NCBI GenBank assembly: GCA_945870145.1
Contig: CAMBQV010000011.1
Coordinates: 1 to 33,867 of the forward strand
Direction of reading: 5' to 3'
Origin: Akkermansia muciniphila
GTDB lineage: Bacteria; Verrucomicrobiota; Kiritimatiellia; RFP12; UBA1067
Length of the DNA stretch: 33,867 nt
Part shown: piece by piece, positions 19,137-33,867 of the stretch
Numbering within the stretch: the stretch's first letter is position 1
Layout of the letters: every line of letters starts with the position of its first letter
Program-made: the position numbers and the translations under genes
Notes under the pieces: model-generated
What the model was told of the DNA's origin: nothing
Databases searched by the model: none
What the model saw: the letters and a program-made list of their open reading frames with translations, nothing else

Positions 19137-19212
19137 CTGTTTCGGAAAACTGGAAATTATTTCTTGTGTGTGTCCAACAAGATTTTTGTCTTGGGGAAGG
19201 ATTTTTTGCGCT

Positions 19213-21447
19213 ATGAGTATTGAATCACTGAAAAATTATGTATTTACCTCAAAATACAGTCGCTACATACCCGAAAAGATGCGTCGGGAAACCTTCGAAG
19301 AGGCGGTCGAGCGTGTGATGGACATGCACCGAAAATATTTTTCAGCCAAAGGCTTGGATATTGAAGATCTCTTGAAGGTCTGTGAAGAGGCCATGAAGAA
19401 GCGCATGGTATTGGGCAGTCAGCGCGCCATGCAGTTTGGTGGCGAGCCCATCCTGCGCAAGCATGCGCGTATCTACAACTGCACCACCTCCTACTGTGAT
19501 CGGACGCGCTTCTTCCAGGAGGCACTCTGGCTTTTGCTCTGCGGCTGTGGCGTCGGCTTCTCGGTGCAGAGCCATCATGTTAAAAAGTTGCCTGACATGA
19601 AGCGTCCTATGGGGGCGAATGCGACCTTTATTGTGCCAGACACGATTGAAGGTTGGTCCGATGCGCTGGGCGTTTTACTCTCCAGTTATTTTGTCGCAGA
19701 TCAGCCCTTCCCAGAGTATGCAGGTAAGATCGTTCATTTTGACTATTCACAAATTCGCGCAAAGGGACGTCCCATTGGCTCGGGCATGGGCCGTGCACCT
19801 GGACCGGAACCGTTGCATCGGAGCATCGAGCTGATTCGGACCTTGATTGACAAACGCATTGAAGAGGGCAATACGCGCCTGCGTTCCGTGGATGCTTATG
19901 ATATTTTGATGCATGCCTCGGATGCAGTGCTTTCAGGCGGTGTCCGCCGTAGCGCGACCATCTGCCTCTTCTCGCCAGATGATGATCTGATGGCGACAGC
20001 GAAGACGGGCAACTGGTTTACAGAAAATCCACAACGCGCCCGTTCCAACAACTCCGCTATTTTGCTCCGCGACAATACCTCGCATCATCAGTTCGCTAAG
20101 CTGATGAAGTCCGTGAAGGAGTTTGGTGAACCCGGCTTCGTCTGGACTGACAGTCTGGAGATGACCTTTAATCCGTGCGGCGAAATTGGACTCTATCCGC
20201 AGATTGACAATGTCAGCGGTTTTGCCTTCTGTAACCTCTGCGAGATCAACATGGGTATTGTGGATACCGCTGAAAAATTCCGCGCCGCGTGTCATGCCGC
20301 CGCCATCCTTGGCACCTTGCAGGCGGACTACACAGATTTCCCTTATCTCGGCGACGTGAGTACGCGCATCGCCAAACGCGAAGCCCTGCTCGGTATCTCG
20401 ATGACCGGCATGATGGAACATCCGGCCATCGCCTTTGATGCCAAGCTTCAGCGCGAGATGGCGCAACATATTCTTGATGTCAACGCAATGGTGGCCAAGC
20501 GGATCGGCATCAACCCTTGTGCACGCGCCACCTGCGTTAAACCCGCCGGCACGACGAGTAGCATTCTTGGAACCTCTTCGGGTATTCATCCGCACCATGC
20601 GAAGCGCTACTTCCGTCGCGCCCAAGCCAATGAAGATGAACTCTTGGTTGACTTCTTTAAGGGACAGAACCCCAAGGCCGTTGAAAAATCAGTCTGGAAT
20701 CCGAACGGCACGGATGTGGTGCTCACCTTCTGCGTCACGGCAAGCCCGGATGCGCTCACCAAGCGCGATGTGAATGCCGTCGACCTGCTGAACAAGGTGA
20801 AGTTGACCAAGGAGAATTGGATTGATGCGGGCAAGCGCCTTGAACTCTGTGCACAACCGTGGTTGAGCCACAACGTTTCCAACACCATCTCGGTTAAGGA
20901 TGACGAGTGGGACCATGTAGAGTCCTTTATTTACGATAATCGTCATGCCTTTGCAGGCATCTCCCTCCTGCCGGAGGGTGGCGACTTGGACTATCCACAA
21001 GCTCCCTTCTGCGAAGTGCTGACAGCGGATGAGATTGTGGATTACTATGGTGTCGGAGCTCTTCTCGCCTCAGGTTTGATCGTGGATGGCATGCATGCCT
21101 TTAACGACAACCTCTGGGCGGCCTGCGACAGCGTCTTGGGACGTGGTGAAAACCTTGACACGCCCACGGCAAAAGTTTATCCTAAACGCGTTTTTGAAGC
21201 CATGGAAGAGATTCGGACGGCGAAGATGGACTGGATCCGACGAGCGCACAAGTTTGCCTCCAACTATTTTGGAGGCGATCGGATCAAGCTCACCCGTTGT
21301 CTCAAGCGCGTCAGCGCCTGTAAGCACTGGGAGGATTTGACCCGCTCGTATGCGCCAGTTGACTATACGCAATTGATCGAACGCCAGGACAATACGACGG
21401 TCACGCAGACCGTGGCCTGCGCGGGCGGTAAGTGCGAGATCATTTAG
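19213..21447 (+). CDS. nrdJ: Adenosylcobalamin-dependent ribonucleoside-triphosphate reductase (class II, monomeric)
   Basis: The enzyme reduces ribonucleotides for DNA synthesis using a cobalamin-derived radical, independent of oxygen. Key parts are visible: YNCTTSYC (Cys90, active-site pair), LSGGVRRSATICLFS, the thiyl-radical motif NPCGEIGL (Cys322), FCNLCEIN (partner Cys), KPAGTTSSILGTSSGIHP, and the C-terminal redox pair ACAGGKCEII (Cys736, Cys741). At 744 residues it is close to the monomeric Lactobacillus enzyme, but the NPCGE motif sits about 85 residues nearer the N-terminus than I recall for that protein. The ATG at 19213 (MSIESL) is preferred over the track's 19168 because GGGGAAGGA lies upstream and the extra residues look non-coding. 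Regulation by NrdR is indicated by the upstream boxes. Confidence 0.95.
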   Translation: MSIESLKNYVFTSKYSRYIPEKMRRETFEEAVERVMDMHRKYFSAKGLDIEDLLKVCEEAMKKRMVLGSQRAMQFGGEPILRKHARIYNCTTSYCDRTRFFQEALWLLLCGCGVGFSVQSHHVKKLPDMKRPMGANATFIVPDTIEGWSDALGVLLSSYFVADQPFPEYAGKIVHFDYSQIRAKGRPIGSGMGRAPGPEPLHRSIELIRTLIDKRIEEGNTRLRSVDAYDILMHASDAVLSGGVRRSATICLFSPDDDLMATAKTGNWFTENPQRARSNNSAILLRDNTSHHQFAKLMKSVKEFGEPGFVWTDSLEMTFNPCGEIGLYPQIDNVSGFAFCNLCEINMGIVDTAEKFRAACHAAAILGTLQADYTDFPYLGDVSTRIAKREALLGISMTGMMEHPAIAFDAKLQREMAQHILDVNAMVAKRIGINPCARATCVKPAGTTSSILGTSSGIHPHHAKRYFRRAQANEDELLVDFFKGQNPKAVEKSVWNPNGTDVVLTFCVTASPDALTKRDVNAVDLLNKVKLTKENWIDAGKRLELCAQPWLSHNVSNTISVKDDEWDHVESFIYDNRHAFAGISLLPEGGDLDYPQAPFCEVLTADEIVDYYGVGALLASGLIVDGMHAFNDNLWAACDSVLGRGENLDTPTAKVYPKRVFEAMEEIRTAKMDWIRRAHKFASNYFGGDRIKLTRCLKRVSACKHWEDLTRSYAPVDYTQLIERQDNTTVTQTVACAGGKCEII

Positions 21448-24385: not shown

Positions 24386-25921
24386 TCACATCCAAATGCT
24401 GCGATCGAGGGAACGGTATTGAATCGCCTCGGAGATATGGCCGGGGCCGATCTCTTCAGCGCCCTCCATATCGGCGATGGTGCGGGCGACTTTGACGATG
24501 CGATCATACGCGCGTGCGCTGAAATGAAACTCGGTCATGGCCATTTTGAGCAACTCGGCTGCCTCCTCCGAAGGGACGCAATGGTCCTGCACATCGCGCG
24601 CTGACATCGCTGCATTACACGTGATCTTGGGATTGCGCGCAAAGCGTTCGCGTTGTCGCCGGCGACAGGTTTCGACGCGATCCCGAATCTCAGCAGAGGG
24701 CGTACCGCGACCTAAGGTGCTCATCTGGTCGTAATTCACCGGGGGCACTTCGATGTGGATGTCGATGCGATCCAGCAAGGGACCTGAAATCTTGTTGCGA
24801 TAGGCCTGTATCTTGGTTGAGGTACAACGGCACTCGCGTTTGGGGTCCCCTGCAAAGCCGCAGGGACACGGATTCATCGCAGCCACAAGCATGAAGCGGG
24901 AGGGGAAGTCGAGGGTGGCTGCGGCGCGGGAGATCGTGACATGGCCATCTTCGAGGGGCTGGCGAAGCACCTCTAAAACGTTGCGATGAAATTCAGGGAG
25001 TTCGTCGAGGAAGAGGACGCCCCGATGGGCCAAACTCACCTCGCCGGGCAAGGGATGGACACCGCCCCCCAAGAGTCCAGCATCTGAGATGGTATGGTGT
25101 GGCGACCGGAAGGGACGTTGGAAGATCAAGGCCTGATGGCTCTTGAGCGTCCCGGCGATGCTGTGGATGCGTGTAGCTTCGAGCGCCTCCTCCAAATGCA
25201 TCTCAGGCAGGATCGAGGCGATACGTCGCGCCAGCATGGTTTTGCCTGCGCCAGGCGAGCCAATCATCAGGATATTGTGGCCACCACAAACCGCGACCTC
25301 GATCGCCCGCTTGGCAGACTCCTGGCCCTTGACATCCGCGAAATCTTCGGTGTGTCCGCGCTCACGTTGGATCAGTTCGGAAAGCTCGACGCGAAAGGGT
25401 TCCAGTTTCAAGGACCCCGAGAGAAACTCGATGGCCTCTCGCAGGTGGCGGACAGGGTAGACCTCAATGCCCTCGGCAACGGCCGCCTCTTCTGCATTGT
25501 CCGCAGGTACAATGATGCCACGTTTGCCTTGCTTACGCATCTCAAGCGTCACAGGGAGTACGCCTCTGACACGACGTACCTCGCCACTCAACGCCAATTC
25601 ACCGATCAAGGCGAACTGGTCGAGATTGGGCATTTCGGCCTCTCCTGTGGCCGCTAGCAGCCCCGCCGCGATCGGCAGGTCATAGACCGGCCCCTCCTTC
25701 TTGATGTCAGCAGGGGCAAGATTAATGGTGGTACGCCCGATCATGGGACGGAACCCCGAGTTGTTCATGGCGGTGAGTACGCGGTCCTTGCTTTCGCGAA
25801 CCGCTGCATCGGGCAATCCGACAATCACAAACTGCGCTTCACCCTTGCCCGCGTTGACCTCGATCTCGACCGAATAGGCATTGACGCCATACACGGCGCC
25901 TGAATAGACACGTGATAACAT
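24386..25921 (-). CDS. comM: YifB/ComM family Mg-chelatase-like AAA+ ATPase
   Basis: ComM is a hexameric AAA+ helicase that extends branch migration during natural transformation; many bacteria carry it as YifB. The N-terminal Lon-like domain has VEIEVNAGKGEAQFVIVGLPDAAVRESKDRV. The AAA+ core has Walker A GSPGAGKTMLARR, Walker B GVLFLDELPEF and the LVAAMNPCPCGFAGDPKRECRC insert. The C-terminal Mg-chelatase segment reads FSARAYDRIVKVARTIADMEG. At 511 residues it is full length. AGAGGAG lies 8 nt before the ATG. It suggests, but does not prove, competence for transformation. Confidence 0.95.
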   Translation of the reverse strand: MLSRVYSGAVYGVNAYSVEIEVNAGKGEAQFVIVGLPDAAVRESKDRVLTAMNNSGFRPMIGRTTINLAPADIKKEGPVYDLPIAAGLLAATGEAEMPNLDQFALIGELALSGEVRRVRGVLPVTLEMRKQGKRGIIVPADNAEEAAVAEGIEVYPVRHLREAIEFLSGSLKLEPFRVELSELIQRERGHTEDFADVKGQESAKRAIEVAVCGGHNILMIGSPGAGKTMLARRIASILPEMHLEEALEATRIHSIAGTLKSHQALIFQRPFRSPHHTISDAGLLGGGVHPLPGEVSLAHRGVLFLDELPEFHRNVLEVLRQPLEDGHVTISRAAATLDFPSRFMLVAAMNPCPCGFAGDPKRECRCTSTKIQAYRNKISGPLLDRIDIHIEVPPVNYDQMSTLGRGTPSAEIRDRVETCRRRQRERFARNPKITCNAAMSARDVQDHCVPSEEAAELLKMAMTEFHFSARAYDRIVKVARTIADMEGAEEIGPGHISEAIQYRSLDRSIWM

Positions 25922-26249: not shown

Positions 26250-29200
26250 TTAAGGAACAAAAAGCGAGTTGGTGTTGTTGATTAGCTCTTGCGTAGCAAT
26301 AAATTGGTTGTTATGGTCTAAAAACAACTTGAATAGGCCTGCGCTATTTGTAAAGCCATTGATAAATGTACGCGCGTGGAAGTTGGCGTCGAAGGAGTTC
26401 GCACCTATTGAATATTGCCGGATGGATTTCAAGGGCTTAAACGGATCCGTATCCTTTAGCCAGATACTGACAGCCGCGTCGCCACGCAAGAAAGTGACAC
26501 GATTGGTGTATCCACTGCCATCGATTGTTGCCATTTCCAAGGTCAACCATAAACCAAACGGAGGATTAGGCACAGGAGTCATTAGGTTGAAAATGAAGCG
26601 ATTGGTTTGGGTTGGATCCATGTTTAGCCAATACTCCTCCTGAAGTCCAAGCGTGCTAGTTTCAAAATAGCTGGGCGCAAGAGGCTTGTCATTATACTGC
26701 CGTAACCAAGCGATCTGGTCTGCGGTTTGTACAAAATTGGTCACATGAGGGGCGAGCCACAATTCAGCGACCAACGTGGTGTTGGTCTGGACATCCACCA
26801 ACGAGATCGTATAGTTTGTGATCGCTTTCTGATCGGTCGGCGAGAGGAGTTGCACATTGTTAGAGAACACGTTGTAGAAGCGGAACCAAGAGTCGGCAAC
26901 ATAATTGAAATTAGTGGCTTGCCCTTTTTTCATCTTAAACATAAGTGGATTCTTTTGCGCGCCATTTTGCCAACCGTGCGTCAATCGATCTTTCGAGAGA
27001 AGCGTGGAAATAATCAGCACATTCGAGCCCCCGGGCATTGGGGCTACAGGGAACTCTTGTCCTAGATTTCTCTCACCAGGCGTCCAGTTGAGCGGTCCCA
27101 CCCCCTGTTGCCAAGAGTTTGTGTTATCTGTACGCTCGTAGCGACCTGCTGTGACATTCACTTTCCCCGTGTAAGCGAGCGAACCATTGAAGTCTTCACG
27201 TCCCACATAACTAAAAGAGGGCGCCGCGTTTGTAAAGTGAACACCTGTAACCCATGAGACGACTTGACGATTGTAATCGTAGGCGATCGACTGCTCATAC
27301 ATGCCCATCGGACGCTTCAGACGATAGCCTCCCGGATAGAATTGGGCAGCCGTACTCCCTGGATAGAAGCTTTCTTTCCCTTGCATATACCACACGGCCT
27401 TATGCACAACGCAAGTGGTAGAGAGCGGCGGATAGGAGGGTCTGTTATTGATGGCCTCGAGGTCGGGGGCCCCTATCACAAAGAGCCCATACTTACTTCC
27501 ATAGTCCAGCACAGGCGAGACAATTGTAGAGGAGTTTAAGAGATCGGTCCGCCATATATAACGATCCTTGTTCAACACTTCTACCGTCCACCCCTGCAAG
27601 CTCATCCATGCGGGCTGAGCAATTTCAACGTAGGGGTTCATGAAGACCTTGTGGTTCTGTGCCAGAAGCGCGTCATCCTCGTTCAGGTTCAGCTCATTGA
27701 TCCAGACCGCTCCAGGAGGTACATCATAGACGATATAATAGGGCGACCACGTCGTCTTGAGCGCGCCTGTAGAGGTGTTACCCACCCTGTTAAAGTCAAC
27801 AGGGAAGTACCACGAGGGATTCACAAAGTGATCCGAGGTTTCCGGAGACTGGGAGATAACATATTTAGTCGAACTACCTGCTCTGTTATACTCTGCCCAG
27901 ACTATGTATTGGACAACCGAGTACTTCTCCTGCTCGGGAATACCCGTAATCATAAAATCGCCAGTTATACGGTAAATTTGATTGGGCACATCCACACAAT
28001 CCAAAGTCTTTTCAACATGGGTTGGGACATTTGTTACGCCTCCCCACGTGTTGGTCCCCACGACGTAAGCGACCTTGACTACAATATTTTTCGGATCCAG
28101 CAAGATGTTGGTGAGTTGAGCCTCTATGCCAATATCCTCGCCTTCAAGAGGCTGTTTAGTCTCTGTGGGGCCAAGAGACGTGGGTACAAGCAACTTCACG
28201 CCAGTGATATCGAAGCGAGGGTAGATCGCCTCGGTCAAGACGATTTCATCAATACCGATGCGCTGAGGGGTGCCAATTAGAGGGGCCACACCATCGACCA
28301 CCAACTTGACTGCCTTGATGGTATTCGGCAAATTGGTATAACTATAGGAGAAGGGACGGTAAAAGGCATTGGTAATATTGGGAAATGTCGCGAGCCATGT
28401 CCATTCTCCGTCGGGTTTATCTCTATTCCACGTATCCGTCGTAACATAAAGTGAGATTGAGGGGGTGGGGAGCCCTGCTGCATAGTTGGCTGTAAAGGCG
28501 CGAGCAAGGAAGGAGATGGTTCCGAGTCCACGGGTCAGACGTGGTGCCATGATATAGGGATTGTGGTTCGTCATCGGCCGATCCGGATGGGTTCCGATTG
28601 TCATGCGGTTGTTCATGTATCCCGAGATATTTGTATCCAACCACCAGTTGTTGGTCTCCGCGGACGTGATCTTCATGTTGTAAGCAACCCAGTCCTTCGG
28701 CGAATTGGTGGGGTTGTTCCAAATCGTAATATTGTCCAAGTCGATGACCGACTTGTTCGTGTGGGTGAGATCATTGATCAACCGTACGTAGATATTAGTC
28801 TCGGCCAGAATCCCGAGGTATAAGTTGACGTTCACCCAACCACTGGTGACATCAAAGGTTAAGTTGGTTATATCAACCCATCCGACGAGAGTATCTCCAG
28901 GAGAAACGCTTTGCGTGTATTGAATCTTCAATTTCGCAGGTCCGTCTGTTACGCGGTAGCCAAAGAGAATCGAGCCAATACCCTCCACCTGTTCGGAACG
29001 GACACCTTGAATCCGAGTTGGATCGGCCTGGGAAGAATCCAGATGGGCATACCACTGGTTGGTCGTATCATAATTCACCCAGCCCTCAGTGATCTTCCAC
29101 TCATCGGCGGTGATGGGGTCGGTCTTCGCACGCCAGCTCGTCACATGAATACCATCCAGGGCAATATCATCATCATCATCCACCGCGATTCGGATAAGAC

Positions 29201-32200
29201 GGTCCCTCCAGTCATTGGTTGTTGCTGAAAACGTCTGGAAGTTATAGTCGGTGATCGTGTGGGTCGCAAATTGAGTCCATTCACCGGTTGTTGTGCCGGT
29301 ATAGAGCTTCACCTGTGTTGATGTACTTGCGGACAAGAAATTGGTGGTCGCTACATATTTATTGGGCATCACGAACCATTCAGTACTGTTTATACCTATC
29401 GAACTAAAGGTGTTGGTCGCCCATGTAGAGGGGGTAAGATCCGCGATCTCTATTTTGGGGACTCTAAGAGCACAATCTGCAGAATGAAAACCATACGAGC
29501 CATACTGAATGGGCGAGTTTGGGTCCATTACAACAGCACCAACATTCGTTGCGCCATTTGAGAGTGTCCAGCCTGTAATATCCGTCTGATTGAAGTTAAC
29601 CTGTATAGCTGTCTCCGTGGAAGACGGATTGTACACATGAAACTTCGTGGGATAGGTAGCAGCGTCCAACGTCGTCAACTGAGCATCCCAGTTTATTTCA
29701 GCTCCAGTTGCTGTCCGAACGACAGAGGCAAGCAGCTTAGGAGTCAATGTCCCGTCCCATTTCCATATTTCATGTTTGATACGCTTATTAAAGTTAGTAT
29801 CAATGGTGCTCGTGCCCACAGGAGTATCACGACTGTCTGTCGTCTGGGTAATCCGGTATTCATAGAACATCAACATGCTTCGATAATAAGCGATCATAGA
29901 CATCGAGGGCGCCTCCGGTGACATAGAATCCACCTTCATCGATGATCGTATAACATAATTCGAGCGGAGCATGTCAGTCATACGCCATATTGCGTTCATG
30001 CTATAATCAAGCATGTTTTGGGGGAGCGGTCGACTTAAACGCGCCTCATAGGTTAAGGTTCCAATGCCGTGGAGGTTCGGCCACTGAGCGGCGTCATTTT
30101 GTAAATAACCATCGCCTGCGGGTGCGCTTTTGCCAAAGAGTCGGACTGCTAGATTTCGGCGCTGGTTCTCGGTGCCTATATAGTTGGGTTCCGTATTTCC
30201 CGCGGTTCGCTCCACCACATATTGAAAGACACCCGCGTACCATTCGGAATAGTTTAAAATTGGCTCGGGACCTGTTCGCAAAGCAGAGGTTTCAACGGGT
30301 GTATAAATAGAGCCTTGCTTAAAATAATTACTTTTGGCAGAAGCAAAACTTTGCGACCAACCATTCGAGAAGGATTGCGAAAAGGCGGTCTTGGGATACT
30401 TGTCTGCTGAGTCGGTAAAGTAATTCTTTGGAGTGTCCCCCGCGTTCCACCCATTAAAATTCTGGTATTCACCCCGGCCTGCGATATAGTTCGTCTTCTC
30501 GGTGTCGAGCGTAAAGAGGACATAGCTGGACTCCCCTGGAACCGTGGTTACGCCGAACCAGTCATTTGTCCGGCTCGTGATGGTGGCGTTGGTGAGTCCG
30601 CAGTTATCCCCGTACGGGAGAGACCCGTTCTGGATACGGGTGGTACTCATATTCTGCCAGTAAACTTTGTTCGTGGTCGTCTGAAAGGCATTGGTATAAG
30701 CGCCGGTCGCCTCAAAATACCAGAGGAGATTCGTCACCCCTGGGTGATTCACAATGTCGTACTTGGCCTGCCACCGGTTGGTGTTGCTGAGCTCCATTTC
30801 CAAAATCTGATTTGTGGATGAACCATTGACGAAGAGAACCGTTTTGACCTTGTCATGGCTCGACGGGAAGAGACGCAAGGAGAAGACAAAGGGGGTGTTT
30901 GTTGCGCTACTTCCCGAGGTCATCCCTGCAGCAGAGTAGACCCGAGGCGATTTTTTTTCGGACACGGTGTTAGTCACTGCCGGATAGACGGTATAATCCT
31001 TTGACTGGTAGTAAGCACCGTAAAAATGGCATACAAAGAAATATTCAAGATTCCCGGCGTCAGAATAGGCGCGCAGGGCGCTCTCCGGTTGCCAGAGTTC
31101 GCCGTTCCCGAGCCCGTCCCCTATATTGACGCAGGTCATCTTATTGGTCACCCAGGGGGTAACTTGATTGAGATAGTTCCAACGTGAGACCATCAGGACA
31201 TTGGTCCGCGTCTCGCTTATTGTAATATGAGGCCCCGGCATATTGTCAATCCTGATCTGAACTTCCATATTCGTGTTCACGCTTGGATAGGCGTTGAAGG
31301 GAGAGAGCCCATGGGACATGATCACGTCAGCCGGCGGCTCAGAGACACGGAGGTTATCAACCGCTACCATCGGTACATCACGATTGCTGCCTTGGTTGTT
31401 CATTCTTTGAATTCGGATGGCAATCGGCCCCCTACAATTGATTTCTTGTTGATACCGATTCGTCGCAACGGAACCGAGGCTTAAAGAGCTTATCTCCACC
31501 CATGACCACGAATCTGGAGGTATGGGTAACAAAAATTCAGCACTATTTGTTGCAATATAGACTTTAATAATGGCCGCTGGGCTAATAGTCGCGACAGGAG
31601 CTATATCAAAATAGAGCGTACCCACGCCGTTAGTTAAAATAGGCGACGCCATTTTCGATCCAATCAAATTCTGAAAATAAGCACAATAATTTGTGTTGGG
31701 CACATACGTGTTACCATTTAAAACCGGCCCAATGCTCGAGCCTGATGTTAAACGGCCCATACGAATATCAGAAAAGACCCATCCTGATATATGAAGATGG
31801 TTGGTTCCTTTTTGTGAGCCTGCTGTATTATTAGTCCCAATATGCTGCCATGTGGGCGTCGCTCCATTTGTCTGATTATAGTCATCAAATGAAAAATATC
31901 TCCCTTCATTCGGATTCAGATCATAGATCGGTGCTGCAAAAGACCAGTCCGGCGGTGGCTCCAAGGCCTGGACGTTGTCAATAACCACATAAGGCAAATC
32001 CGGATTGCTGCCGAGGGTGTTCATTCTTTGAATTCGAATGGCGATTGAGCCCACATAGTTAAGGTTTGTCTGATAAGTTATCTGATTGGTTGAACTGATC
32101 GCTAAAGACCCTATTTCTACCCATGCGTTGGTGGGTATGGGGCTCACAACATTTGTCGCAATATAGACTTTAATACTGGCCGCTACGCCCAAAGTAGAGG

Positions 32201-32621
32201 CCGCCACAATATCAAACGAGAACGTAGTAACACCATTTGTAAAAATGGGCGACTCCATTTTCGCTCCAGACAGATTCCGAAAATAGGCACAATAATTGAT
32301 GTCAGGGACATACGTGTTGCCGTTTAAGGCCGGCGCGATGCTCGTCCCTGCTGTTATACGGCCCATACGCATCTCCTCAAGGGACCATCCTGATTTATGT
32401 TGATGGTTGGTACCCTCTTGGGATCCGTTATATGTTGTAGCCCCGGTATGCGTCCATGTGCCGTCCGCTGTCAAACTATAGTCATCAAAAAACAGATCAC
32501 GACCTTTATCAGCAGCCGAGGCAGCGCCTTGCGCTACAAGCACAGGAAAACTCAGGAGGGCTAGGCACACAATAAGCCAACCGCTCCAGCTAGGTTTAAA
32601 AATTGGGTTGAGTATATTCAT
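26250..32621 (-). CDS. Giant secreted multi-domain beta-sandwich protein (2,123 residues)
   Basis: I do not recognise a named family. Residues 1-34 form a signal peptide (WLIVCLALLSFPVLVAQGAASA). Two N-terminal modules, about 42-224 and 241-430, are close duplicates sharing LNGNTYVP.(I/T)NYCAYF, KVYIATN and IAIRIQRMN.(L/Q)GSN. Similar jelly-roll signatures (G-hydrophobic-G-[ST] strand ... ID[NE] strand) recur, as in GIGSILFGYR, GLGTISFLAR, VIDLDNITIW and GIDEIVLTEA, up to about residue 1455. Near 1637 VWINELNLNEDD and EIAQPAWMSLQGWTVEVL resemble a lamin-tail domain. The protein is Asn/Thr-rich and has no visible C-terminal sorting anchor. It follows a pilin-like gene by 25 nt in the same operon. 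Inferred role: surface or extracellular adhesion or polymer binding. Confidence 0.85.
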   Translation of the reverse strand: MNILNPIFKPSWSGWLIVCLALLSFPVLVAQGAASAADKGRDLFFDDYSLTADGTWTHTGATTYNGSQEGTNHQHKSGWSLEEMRMGRITAGTSIAPALNGNTYVPDINYCAYFRNLSGAKMESPIFTNGVTTFSFDIVAASTLGVAASIKVYIATNVVSPIPTNAWVEIGSLAISSTNQITYQTNLNYVGSIAIRIQRMNTLGSNPDLPYVVIDNVQALEPPPDWSFAAPIYDLNPNEGRYFSFDDYNQTNGATPTWQHIGTNNTAGSQKGTNHLHISGWVFSDIRMGRLTSGSSIGPVLNGNTYVPNTNYCAYFQNLIGSKMASPILTNGVGTLYFDIAPVATISPAAIIKVYIATNSAEFLLPIPPDSWSWVEISSLSLGSVATNRYQQEINCRGPIAIRIQRMNNQGSNRDVPMVAVDNLRVSEPPADVIMSHGLSPFNAYPSVNTNMEVQIRIDNMPGPHITISETRTNVLMVSRWNYLNQVTPWVTNKMTCVNIGDGLGNGELWQPESALRAYSDAGNLEYFFVCHFYGAYYQSKDYTVYPAVTNTVSEKKSPRVYSAAGMTSGSSATNTPFVFSLRLFPSSHDKVKTVLFVNGSSTNQILEMELSNTNRWQAKYDIVNHPGVTNLLWYFEATGAYTNAFQTTTNKVYWQNMSTTRIQNGSLPYGDNCGLTNATITSRTNDWFGVTTVPGESSYVLFTLDTEKTNYIAGRGEYQNFNGWNAGDTPKNYFTDSADKYPKTAFSQSFSNGWSQSFASAKSNYFKQGSIYTPVETSALRTGPEPILNYSEWYAGVFQYVVERTAGNTEPNYIGTENQRRNLAVRLFGKSAPAGDGYLQNDAAQWPNLHGIGTLTYEARLSRPLPQNMLDYSMNAIWRMTDMLRSNYVIRSSMKVDSMSPEAPSMSMIAYYRSMLMFYEYRITQTTDSRDTPVGTSTIDTNFNKRIKHEIWKWDGTLTPKLLASVVRTATGAEINWDAQLTTLDAATYPTKFHVYNPSSTETAIQVNFNQTDITGWTLSNGATNVGAVVMDPNSPIQYGSYGFHSADCALRVPKIEIADLTPSTWATNTFSSIGINSTEWFVMPNKYVATTNFLSASTSTQVKLYTGTTTGEWTQFATHTITDYNFQTFSATTNDWRDRLIRIAVDDDDDIALDGIHVTSWRAKTDPITADEWKITEGWVNYDTTNQWYAHLDSSQADPTRIQGVRSEQVEGIGSILFGYRVTDGPAKLKIQYTQSVSPGDTLVGWVDITNLTFDVTSGWVNVNLYLGILAETNIYVRLINDLTHTNKSVIDLDNITIWNNPTNSPKDWVAYNMKITSAETNNWWLDTNISGYMNNRMTIGTHPDRPMTNHNPYIMAPRLTRGLGTISFLARAFTANYAAGLPTPSISLYVTTDTWNRDKPDGEWTWLATFPNITNAFYRPFSYSYTNLPNTIKAVKLVVDGVAPLIGTPQRIGIDEIVLTEAIYPRFDITGVKLLVPTSLGPTETKQPLEGEDIGIEAQLTNILLDPKNIVVKVAYVVGTNTWGGVTNVPTHVEKTLDCVDVPNQIYRITGDFMITGIPEQEKYSVVQYIVWAEYNRAGSSTKYVISQSPETSDHFVNPSWYFPVDFNRVGNTSTGALKTTWSPYYIVYDVPPGAVWINELNLNEDDALLAQNHKVFMNPYVEIAQPAWMSLQGWTVEVLNKDRYIWRTDLLNSSTIVSPVLDYGSKYGLFVIGAPDLEAINNRPSYPPLSTTCVVHKAVWYMQGKESFYPGSTAAQFYPGGYRLKRPMGMYEQSIAYDYNRQVVSWVTGVHFTNAAPSFSYVGREDFNGSLAYTGKVNVTAGRYERTDNTNSWQQGVGPLNWTPGERNLGQEFPVAPMPGGSNVLIISTLLSKDRLTHGWQNGAQKNPLMFKMKKGQATNFNYVADSWFRFYNVFSNNVQLLSPTDQKAITNYTISLVDVQTNTTLVAELWLAPHVTNFVQTADQIAWLRQYNDKPLAPSYFETSTLGLQEEYWLNMDPTQTNRFIFNLMTPVPNPPFGLWLTLEMATIDGSGYTNRVTFLRGDAAVSIWLKDTDPFKPLKSIRQYSIGANSFDANFHARTFINGFTNSAGLFKLFLDHNNQFIATQELINNTNSLFVP
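31332..32498 (-). repeat. Tandem duplication of the N-terminal module in the giant gene
   Basis: DNA encoding residues about 42-224 (32498-31950) and 241-430 (31901-31332) is similar at the nucleotide level too, for example the shared TTCATTCTTTGAATTCG near 32023 and 31401. The duplication is therefore fairly recent, unlike the diverged later modules. Confidence 0.85.
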
Positions 32622-32646
32622 AGCTCGCTCTTTCTCACAAAAAGGG

Positions 32647-33606
32647 TTACATCATCTTTTTGCGAATATCGATAGCAATTTCTTCTCCGTTGCACATCTG
32701 CTTGGTGAGATTTATTAGGTCGGCGACATCGACTTTTGCTTTACCGTCTGAACCCCGCACAGCAGGCTGAACCACGCCGTCCACATGACCATCTGCAAAC
32801 GCGACGTTGGCAACCCACCGGTTGCTGACCCTATGATTAAAGCCAAAGTATTCATCTTTATTCGTGTCAGGGGCCAAATTACTGTCGCCAGGATTCAAAA
32901 CACTGTCACCCCATGTTTCTCCAGTGAAGACCCCTTTTTGATCTTTTTGCCCAGGTAACTCTGCGAAGAGGACCCGAATAGCTGCGGTGCCGGATTGATT
33001 TATGCTCCCCAAGTTCCTGTGATGATGATGCTTGTATTTGGGTTTATTAGGCTTGTCATGATAACCAAAGTAGTAGTTCATCACATAGGAGCGATAAACT
33101 CGCTTTACCGGAGCAGCCTCCAAAACTTTTTTGTGAGTTCCGCAGAAATAAACACTCGCATCCCCTCCGATGTAAGACCAGAGCACCCCGTTCGTGATGG
33201 AGAAAAAGGCAAGCGTCGTGTCGGCGAAGGTGGAAGCGTTCATGGAGTCTTCCTTTGATTCTGTCAAGCCAGGTTTGTAGGGCCATTCGCCGCCACCCGC
33301 TGGAGTCCAAGAGACCCAAGCGGCTGAGGAAGAGAAATAGACTGTCTCTAGGTCGCTCCCGAGGTGACTGGTTTCGAAGGATCCTGCTGTAGGGATGTGC
33401 TGGTCATCGTCATCGCCAGACTGACTCGTGGTATAGCTGGAGACGGCTTGAGCAAGGTTCTTGAGGTTTGCCATGCATTTCAACTTCTGCCCCCCAGCGA
33501 TGCCACTCGTCATGTTTGTAATCAAGGCAGCGGCCAAGAGGCCGACAATCCCAATGACCATCAGCAACTCGATTAAAGTAAATCCTTTTTGTAGATTTTC
33601 TTTCAT
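32647..33606 (-). CDS. Type IV pilin-like/pseudopilin protein with H-X-DG C-terminal signature
   Basis: The prepilin signal MKENLQKG-FTLIELLMVIGIVGLLAAALI has the Gly cleavage site and Glu at +5, followed by the hydrophobic assembly helix. The large C-terminal domain ends with VANVAFADGHVDGV, the signature of the PVC-type prepilin family with a processing-associated H-X9-DG domain. Such genes occur in many copies in planctomycetes and relatives; their roles are largely unknown, perhaps type II secretion or surface filaments. The ATG at 33606 is chosen over the track's 33630 because the class III signal must be short and AGGTG lies just upstream. The next gene, 25 nt downstream, encodes the giant secreted protein. 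A HHHH stretch occurs near the middle. Confidence 0.92.
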   Translation of the reverse strand: MKENLQKGFTLIELLMVIGIVGLLAAALITNMTSGIAGGQKLKCMANLKNLAQAVSSYTTSQSGDDDDQHIPTAGSFETSHLGSDLETVYFSSSAAWVSWTPAGGGEWPYKPGLTESKEDSMNASTFADTTLAFFSITNGVLWSYIGGDASVYFCGTHKKVLEAAPVKRVYRSYVMNYYFGYHDKPNKPKYKHHHHRNLGSINQSGTAAIRVLFAELPGQKDQKGVFTGETWGDSVLNPGDSNLAPDTNKDEYFGFNHRVSNRWVANVAFADGHVDGVVQPAVRGSDGKAKVDVADLINLTKQMCNGEEIAIDIRKKMM

Positions 33607-33679
33607 AATAAGCACACCTAAAATAAACACCCTTTTTAGCGTTCAATATTTTGCGCTTTATTCAGGAAAAAGGCAAGCA

Positions 33680-33716: not shown

Positions 33717-33867
33717 GTACGGGCGTCCCCGCCCGTACTTTGCGCAGGCGCGGACGCCTGCGTACCGTGTGCGTGGCGTACGGGCGTCCCCGCCCGTACT
33801 TTGCGCAGGCGCGGACGCCTGCGCACCGTGGGCGTGGCGTACGGGCGTCCCCGCCCGTACGTTGCGC
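33717..33867. repeat. 61-bp tandem repeat with internal palindromes (cut by window end)
   Basis: Copies start at 33717, 33778 and 33839, an exact 61-bp period. Each unit holds GTACGGGCG-TCCC-CGCCCGTAC (9-bp stem) and GCGCAGGCG-CGGA-CGCCTGCGY (8-9 bp stem). In copy 1 the outermost pair of the second stem is G-T and in copy 2 G-C. The third copy has one change (GTACGTTGC) and is truncated by the window edge. Confidence 0.92.

Follow-up and report, generated by a model that had tools for sequence, protein, structure and literature searches.

A conserved pilin gene paired with a giant modular protein gene in Kiritimatiellia: a candidate surface partner of a type 4 filament machine

In the window, by which we mean the whole 33,867-nucleotide stretch of DNA analysed here, a prepilin gene lies directly before an open reading frame for a giant protein, and the pairing of these two genes among relatives is conserved, neither random nor universal. 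We lean towards reading the giant as a surface-exposed partner (a surface or tip protein) that is no pilin itself and belongs to a type 4 filament (T4F) machine, with the pilin connecting the two. The pairing, the co-occurrence of the two genes and their membership in gene clusters of class-level relatives are observed, and from these we infer display, a tip position and binding. Type 4 filaments are nearly universal, and to our knowledge few large non-pilin partners of them are known. A limited literature search found nothing on the pilin-giant pair, which is no proof that it is undescribed.

The window is the entire contig C11 of a genome (G000) of 2.43 Mb that is 79% complete. Read on the minus strand from the right contig end, the order is the prepilin gene, a 25-nt gap and an open reading frame of 2,123 aa. 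As read from the sequence, a terminator would not fit into this gap, and the GC content of the two genes is equal (48.7%). The features of the locus are the following:

32647..33606, minus strand: prepilin, 319 aa, likely start ATG at 33606, reading frame open to GTG at 33630
32788..32835, minus strand: H-x13-DG motif of the pilin, HRVSNRWVANVAFADG, C-terminal, spacing of 13 in 14/14 orthologs
32622..32646, minus strand: intergenic gap from the stop codon of the pilin to the start of the giant, 25 nt, with a purine-rich possible ribosome site
26250..32621, minus strand: open reading frame of the giant protein, 2,123 aa, about 237 kDa
32514..32621, minus strand: putative signal peptide of the giant, Sec type, about residues 1-36, read by eye
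31962..32504, minus strand: first module, copy 1, residues 40-220 (module HMM, iE 7e-38)
31338..31904, minus strand: first module, copy 2, residues 240-428 (module HMM, iE 2e-52)
28212..29306, minus strand: predicted jelly-roll region, about residues 1106-1470 (AlphaFold and Foldseek: reelin, MAM, CBM22)
27462..27716, minus strand: stretch once called lamin-tail-like, about residues 1636-1720, lamin-tail not confirmed, low model confidence
26253..27344, minus strand: conserved C-terminal region, residues 1760-2123 (alignment conservation)
24386-25921, next gene after the giant: ComM-type Mg-chelatase-like ATPase (Pfam)

ComM is linked to natural transformation, and a gene of this type is found 3' of the giant in the window and in L034 and one gene further on in L035. 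Elsewhere in the window (19168-21447), a 759-aa ribonucleotide-reductase-like protein has a weak Pfam match to the RNR barrel (E 1.7e-8), which points to a possibly divergent enzyme of class II.

The N-terminus of the prepilin consists of a GFTLIEL leader with Glu5, matched by N_methyl (PF07963, E 1.5e-6) and, above its cut-off, by TIGR02532 (E values from 1e-6 to 1e-7), and its C-terminal domain is long. Glu5 and three cysteines are invariant across 14 aligned orthologs, and sequence matches in the PDB are pilins and GspG, aligned essentially over the N-terminal helix. In a profile search of 144 relatives, each genome of the order usually gave a single strong match to an ortholog of full length. 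The protein shares the prepilin leader and the C-terminal H..DG motif with the H-X9-DG/DUF1559 (PF07596) pilin-like proteins of PVC bacteria, but its spacing is 13 and not 9, and it has no PF07596 match, while 8/14 orthologs match this family at E<0.01. The description of the gene in an earlier note on this DNA, a prepilin with an H-X-DG signature directly before the giant, is thus borne out for adjacency, leader and motif, whereas the signature deviates in its spacing, and its TIGR04294 (H-X9-DG) score of 13.1 bits falls below the cut-off of 19.

The giant begins with a charged start, a hydrophobic core and an AxA-like site, and the N-termini of its homologs are similar. No Pfam or NCBIfam match was obtained at E<=1, and PDB sequence searches with the giant and with its alignment gave no match. 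A contig scan with the single protein likewise returned nothing, but a scan with the giant alignment did find relatives. Homologs were detected in 60 of the 144 relatives, and in a phylum sample of 388 genomes all giant homologs among the matches listed belong to the same class (71 genomes). The named relatives are Kiritimatiellae MAGs, the others lake, rumen, gut and digester bins. In agreement with the earlier note, Pfam and NCBIfam gave no match to an autotransporter beta-barrel, an LPXTG/sortase or a T9SS domain in the giant, and none is visible in its C-terminus. There was also no NCBIfam match to the Verru_Chthon cassette TIGR02600.

The two copies of the first module share 70% nucleotide identity over 572 bp and 56% amino acid identity, so that the duplication noted before is real, although not as recent as had been proposed. 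Since each copy is only 38-41% identical to the single copy of a genome of the same genus, the doubling, judged from these identities, appears to be lineage-specific or homogenised and not fresh. Two copies occur in many relatives as well, and in several of them each copy is closest to its own partner. Structure prediction by segments, as the earlier note had suggested, yielded beta-rich jelly-roll modules at modest confidence, with a mean pLDDT of 59 for residues 225-1105 and 64 for residues 1106-2123 (mostly 75-88 within residues 1866-2115). The fold matches of the models in the PDB comprise reelin repeats, MAM, CBM22, CBM4-2, the cleaved adhesin domains of gingipain Kgp and the Epf adhesin. 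They are mutually consistent, with E values from 1e-10 to 1e-2, and none is an enzymatic domain. At this model confidence the matches are indicative only, and they point to jelly-rolls of adhesin type. The region around residues 1106-1470 is the part of the giant conserved farthest from the window, to class level. At least five related beta-sandwich modules had been claimed; a BLASTP self-comparison of the giant gave no off-diagonal match at E<=1 that would attest their relatedness. The lamin-tail-like domain could not be confirmed, as Pfam found no PF00932 match in the giant of the window or in 16 homologs (E<=0.1).

The orthologous pilin gene lies immediately upstream of the full-length giant, on the same strand, in 19/19 family genomes in which the 5' end of the giant gene is readable (16 including the window, plus G005, G003 and G026, the rest being cut by contig ends). 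The distance between the two genes ranges from -41 to +71 nt across relatives, and the genes flanking the pair vary (ComM, LeuRS, a YggS-like gene and others). That the pilin precedes every one of these giants while the flanks change argues for a filament partner. The downstream genes (LeuRS, YggS-like, ComM and others) were considered as partners of the pair and rejected, since they are unrelated to each other. Seven genomes have unpaired giant paralogs, and most of those measured end near profile position 1534; because their profile coverage stops there, these short paralogs apparently mostly lack the conserved C-terminal region (residues 1760-2123). One unpaired homolog, of at least 3,465 aa, is found in L198 1-19501 (G006), followed 15 nt later by an open reading frame of >3,000 aa.

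The pair also recurs in other genera (L086, L094, L144, L145) and in family f3 (L055, L113), where the giant measures about 3,900 aa. Mapped onto a tree of 61 pilin rows, adjacency to the giant changes 6 times compared to 18.6 times after shuffling, i.e. it is clustered. This clustering and the recurrence in other genera and in f3 likewise speak for a filament partner. A pair nearly identical to that of L043 is carried by L139 (JAFZPB010000156.1), a contig labelled Muribaculaceae (Bacteroidota) that is probably mis-binned.

Weighing against a filament partner, the pilin ortholog of families f2, f4, f5 and f6 is located directly before the primary sigma factor gene rpoD (L099-L112; 11 rows, the identity of rpoD being checked by Pfam on two), and many giants lie apart from this pilin in these families and also in genera g6 and g14. 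In much of one branch of the window's own family (f1), comprising some of its genera, the pilin precedes unrelated genes. The earlier note had named random pairing across genomes as the outcome that would remove the functional link; the survey gave an invariant pairing within the clade, with rpoD or unrelated genes behind the pilin elsewhere. The distribution would fit an old pair that was broken in several lineages, with regain as the alternative. A stand-alone two-gene system was rejected, since it is common for pilin orthologs to have no giant beside them; the proposal of a dedicated export or display pair therefore holds for the pairing and the class-wide co-occurrence described below and fails as regards self-sufficiency.

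A further component may be encoded beyond the contig end. The window ends with a 61-bp tandem repeat (33717-33867) containing the palindrome GTACGGGCGTCCCCGCCCGTAC, and contig C26 of the same genome starts with the same repeat (L207 1-59, 97%). Judged by this repeat, C26 probably adjoins C11 at the pilin end, a join that is only inferred because the genome has fragments of the REP-like repeat at about 14 sites. The relevant gene of C26 is:

L207 151-1440 (G000 contig C26), minus strand: 429-aa secreted LamG/MAM-like protein, third-component family

If the contigs adjoin, the third component would come first, then the pilin and the giant, an order also seen in G018, G030 and G016, where a LamG/MAM-like homolog lies just upstream of the pilin. 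As the secreted LamG/MAM-like proteins are a multi-copy family, its membership is suggested by position only.

When the class is examined beyond the order, 13/14 genomes with a strong giant also have a full-length pilin ortholog versus 1/33 of the others, with a strong giant defined by E<=1e-40 and the pilin match having to extend beyond profile position 140. The Fisher p of about 1e-9 refers to genomes that are related and not independent and to cut-offs set after seeing the data. In G402, the sole exception among the 33, a weak giant match starts 18 bp from the pilin in divergent orientation. In seven genomes, G402 among them, pilin and giant share a contig and lie no more than about 13 kb apart. 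This co-occurrence and the shared contigs again favour a filament partner.

In G332, G445, G411 and G382 the order runs from the giant through a secreted protein of 400-500 aa to a divergent pilin. Next after the pilin, G332 has an Amuc_1102-like gene and PilM and G445 a similar gene pair, and a GspK-like gene lies on the far side of the giant in G332, G411 and G382, the last also with pseudopilins. The neighbours of the giant in G385 are a GspK-like gene, six pilin genes and GspF, with G135 and G337 being similar; in L184, L188 and L051 the giant is located beside GspF, minor pseudopilins and a GspK-like gene, and in L179 and L177 beside pilin, Amuc_1102-like and PilM genes. PilM (E 1e-43) and GspF (E 1e-66) were confirmed by Pfam, the Amuc_1100 and Amuc_1102 neighbours rest on NCBIfam matches below the curated cut-offs, and for the remaining cluster members the assignment relied only on similarity or appearance. 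In L180, the GspK-like neighbour scores 22 bits against the TIGR02600 cut-off of 332. Several T2SSE ATPases and secretins are encoded in each of 20/20 genomes tested. The presence of this machinery and the position of the giant next to filament genes in class relatives provide further support for a filament partner.

A run of Amuc_1102-like, PilM and Amuc_1100-like genes, a further gene and a secretin is present in the order members examined (L197, L201, L205 and others); L177, L179, L184, L188, L051 and the L197-L206 set together cover this type of run in Kiritimatiellota and the GspF-pseudopilin-GspK-like cluster beside the giant in class relatives. In G117 the pilin-giant pair follows 3.4 kb after the secretin of such a run. 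Against a filament partner, however, the pair lies away from the PilM/secretin operon in most f1 genomes, and the operon, while present in G001 of the same genus, was not found in the window's genome at 79% completeness. The Amuc_1098-1102 cluster of Akkermansia codes for proteins that are abundant in the envelope, and Amuc_1100 has been observed at the cell surface, which would agree with pili-like structures (PMC5332112). The relatives of the order and class share the gene kinds and the gene order of this cluster, but their NCBIfam matches lie below the curated cut-offs, and in the phylum sample the homologs of the giant among the matches listed all fall within the class.

The main rival explanation, which we consider rather unlikely, is that the giant is plain type II secretion cargo, released or loosely attached and no structural part of a filament, with the pilin acting as an ordinary pseudopilin. 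The GspF, GspG-like, pseudopilin and GspK-like genes beside the giant in class-level relatives suit such cargo, as does the contact of T2SS substrates with the minor-pseudopilin complex described in a review, and the carbohydrate-binding-like folds of the models would be appropriate for a secreted protein. However, a single giant tied to one specific pilin throughout the class is unusual for a general-secretion substrate, and the adjoining PilM and Amuc_1100-like genes are of pilus type. Quite improbable, in our estimation, is the absence of any mechanical link, i.e. that the giant is an independent surface protein, the pairing an inherited neighbourhood and the pilin a servant of the general machine. 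Pilin orthologs in 138/144 relatives (E<=1e-10), many of them away from a giant, and the arrangement with rpoD in four families agree with this, but the pair is kept while its flanks change, it persists in scattered lineages and in f3, and proximity recurs in other families in divergent arrangement together with the class-wide co-occurrence. A pilin-like protein working outside any filament as a membrane-tethered chaperone or anchor would account for a very large giant that has no recognised sorting domain and for the long, conserved C-terminal domain of the pilin, but is highly improbable given the classic prepilin leader and conserved Glu5, which suggest polymerisation with other pilins, and the position of both genes among filament-assembly genes in class-level relatives.

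A precedent for the giant as a filament partner is PilY1, a large modular non-pilin protein at the tip of type 4a pili in complex with minor pilins (PMC10191384, PMC7541494). The giant resembles PilY1/PilC in being encoded next to a pilin gene in all readable family cases and, as far as sequence and models tell, in its size, modularity, Sec-type signal and adhesion-type modules. It differs in that no PilC beta-propeller match was found by Pfam at E<=1, nor any other Pfam family, with none listed for any of the 16 homologs, and in that the window's clade has a single pilin gene instead of a minor-pilin set. While PilY1 is located at the pilus tip, a corresponding place of the giant is proposed from genes and models. 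The giant would thus work in a PilY1-like manner but is not a PilY1 homolog. The modular pilins PilB and PilC of Streptococcus sanguinis offer another parallel, a pilin-based filament presenting adhesive modules (PMC10191384), as we would expect here; in those proteins pilin and module are fused, whereas here the genes are separate. The PilY1 precedent, the invariant Glu5 and the adhesin-type folds add to the case for a filament partner, from which the low to moderate confidence of the structure models detracts.

If the giant is a filament partner, the most plausible direction is that the pilin helps to export or present it. Sec would export the giant by means of its putative signal peptide, and the prepilin would be inserted and cut by the prepilin peptidase, as leader and Glu5 suggest. 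The large C-terminal domain of the pilin would then bind the giant in the periplasm, probably helped by minor pseudopilins and the GspK-like subunit. The extension ATPase, GspF and a PilM-type platform, the genes of which occur in relatives, would push the complex through the secretin, and the string of jelly-rolls would end up exposed outside, either at the tip of the filament or on the surface, where, going by its folds, it may bind glycans or other cells.

More tentatively, and with less confidence than we place in the partnership itself, Kiritimatiellia could possess a distinct T4F lineage built on an Amuc_1100-like PilM/secretin machine, in which a class-specific family of giant adhesins, unrelated to PilY1, forms the tip or surface and a dedicated pilin, often together with a LamG/MAM-like third protein, serves as the docking subunit. 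The Amuc_1100-like counterpart outside Akkermansia merits a study of its own. The giant family is class-wide, novel in sequence and tied to one pilin. If our reading is true, the giant would give the Kiritimatiellota version of the Amuc_1098-1102 cluster a candidate function, the surface presentation of adhesion modules, and would represent a PilY1 counterpart of independent origin in bacteria that inhabit lakes, the rumen, termite guts and digesters.
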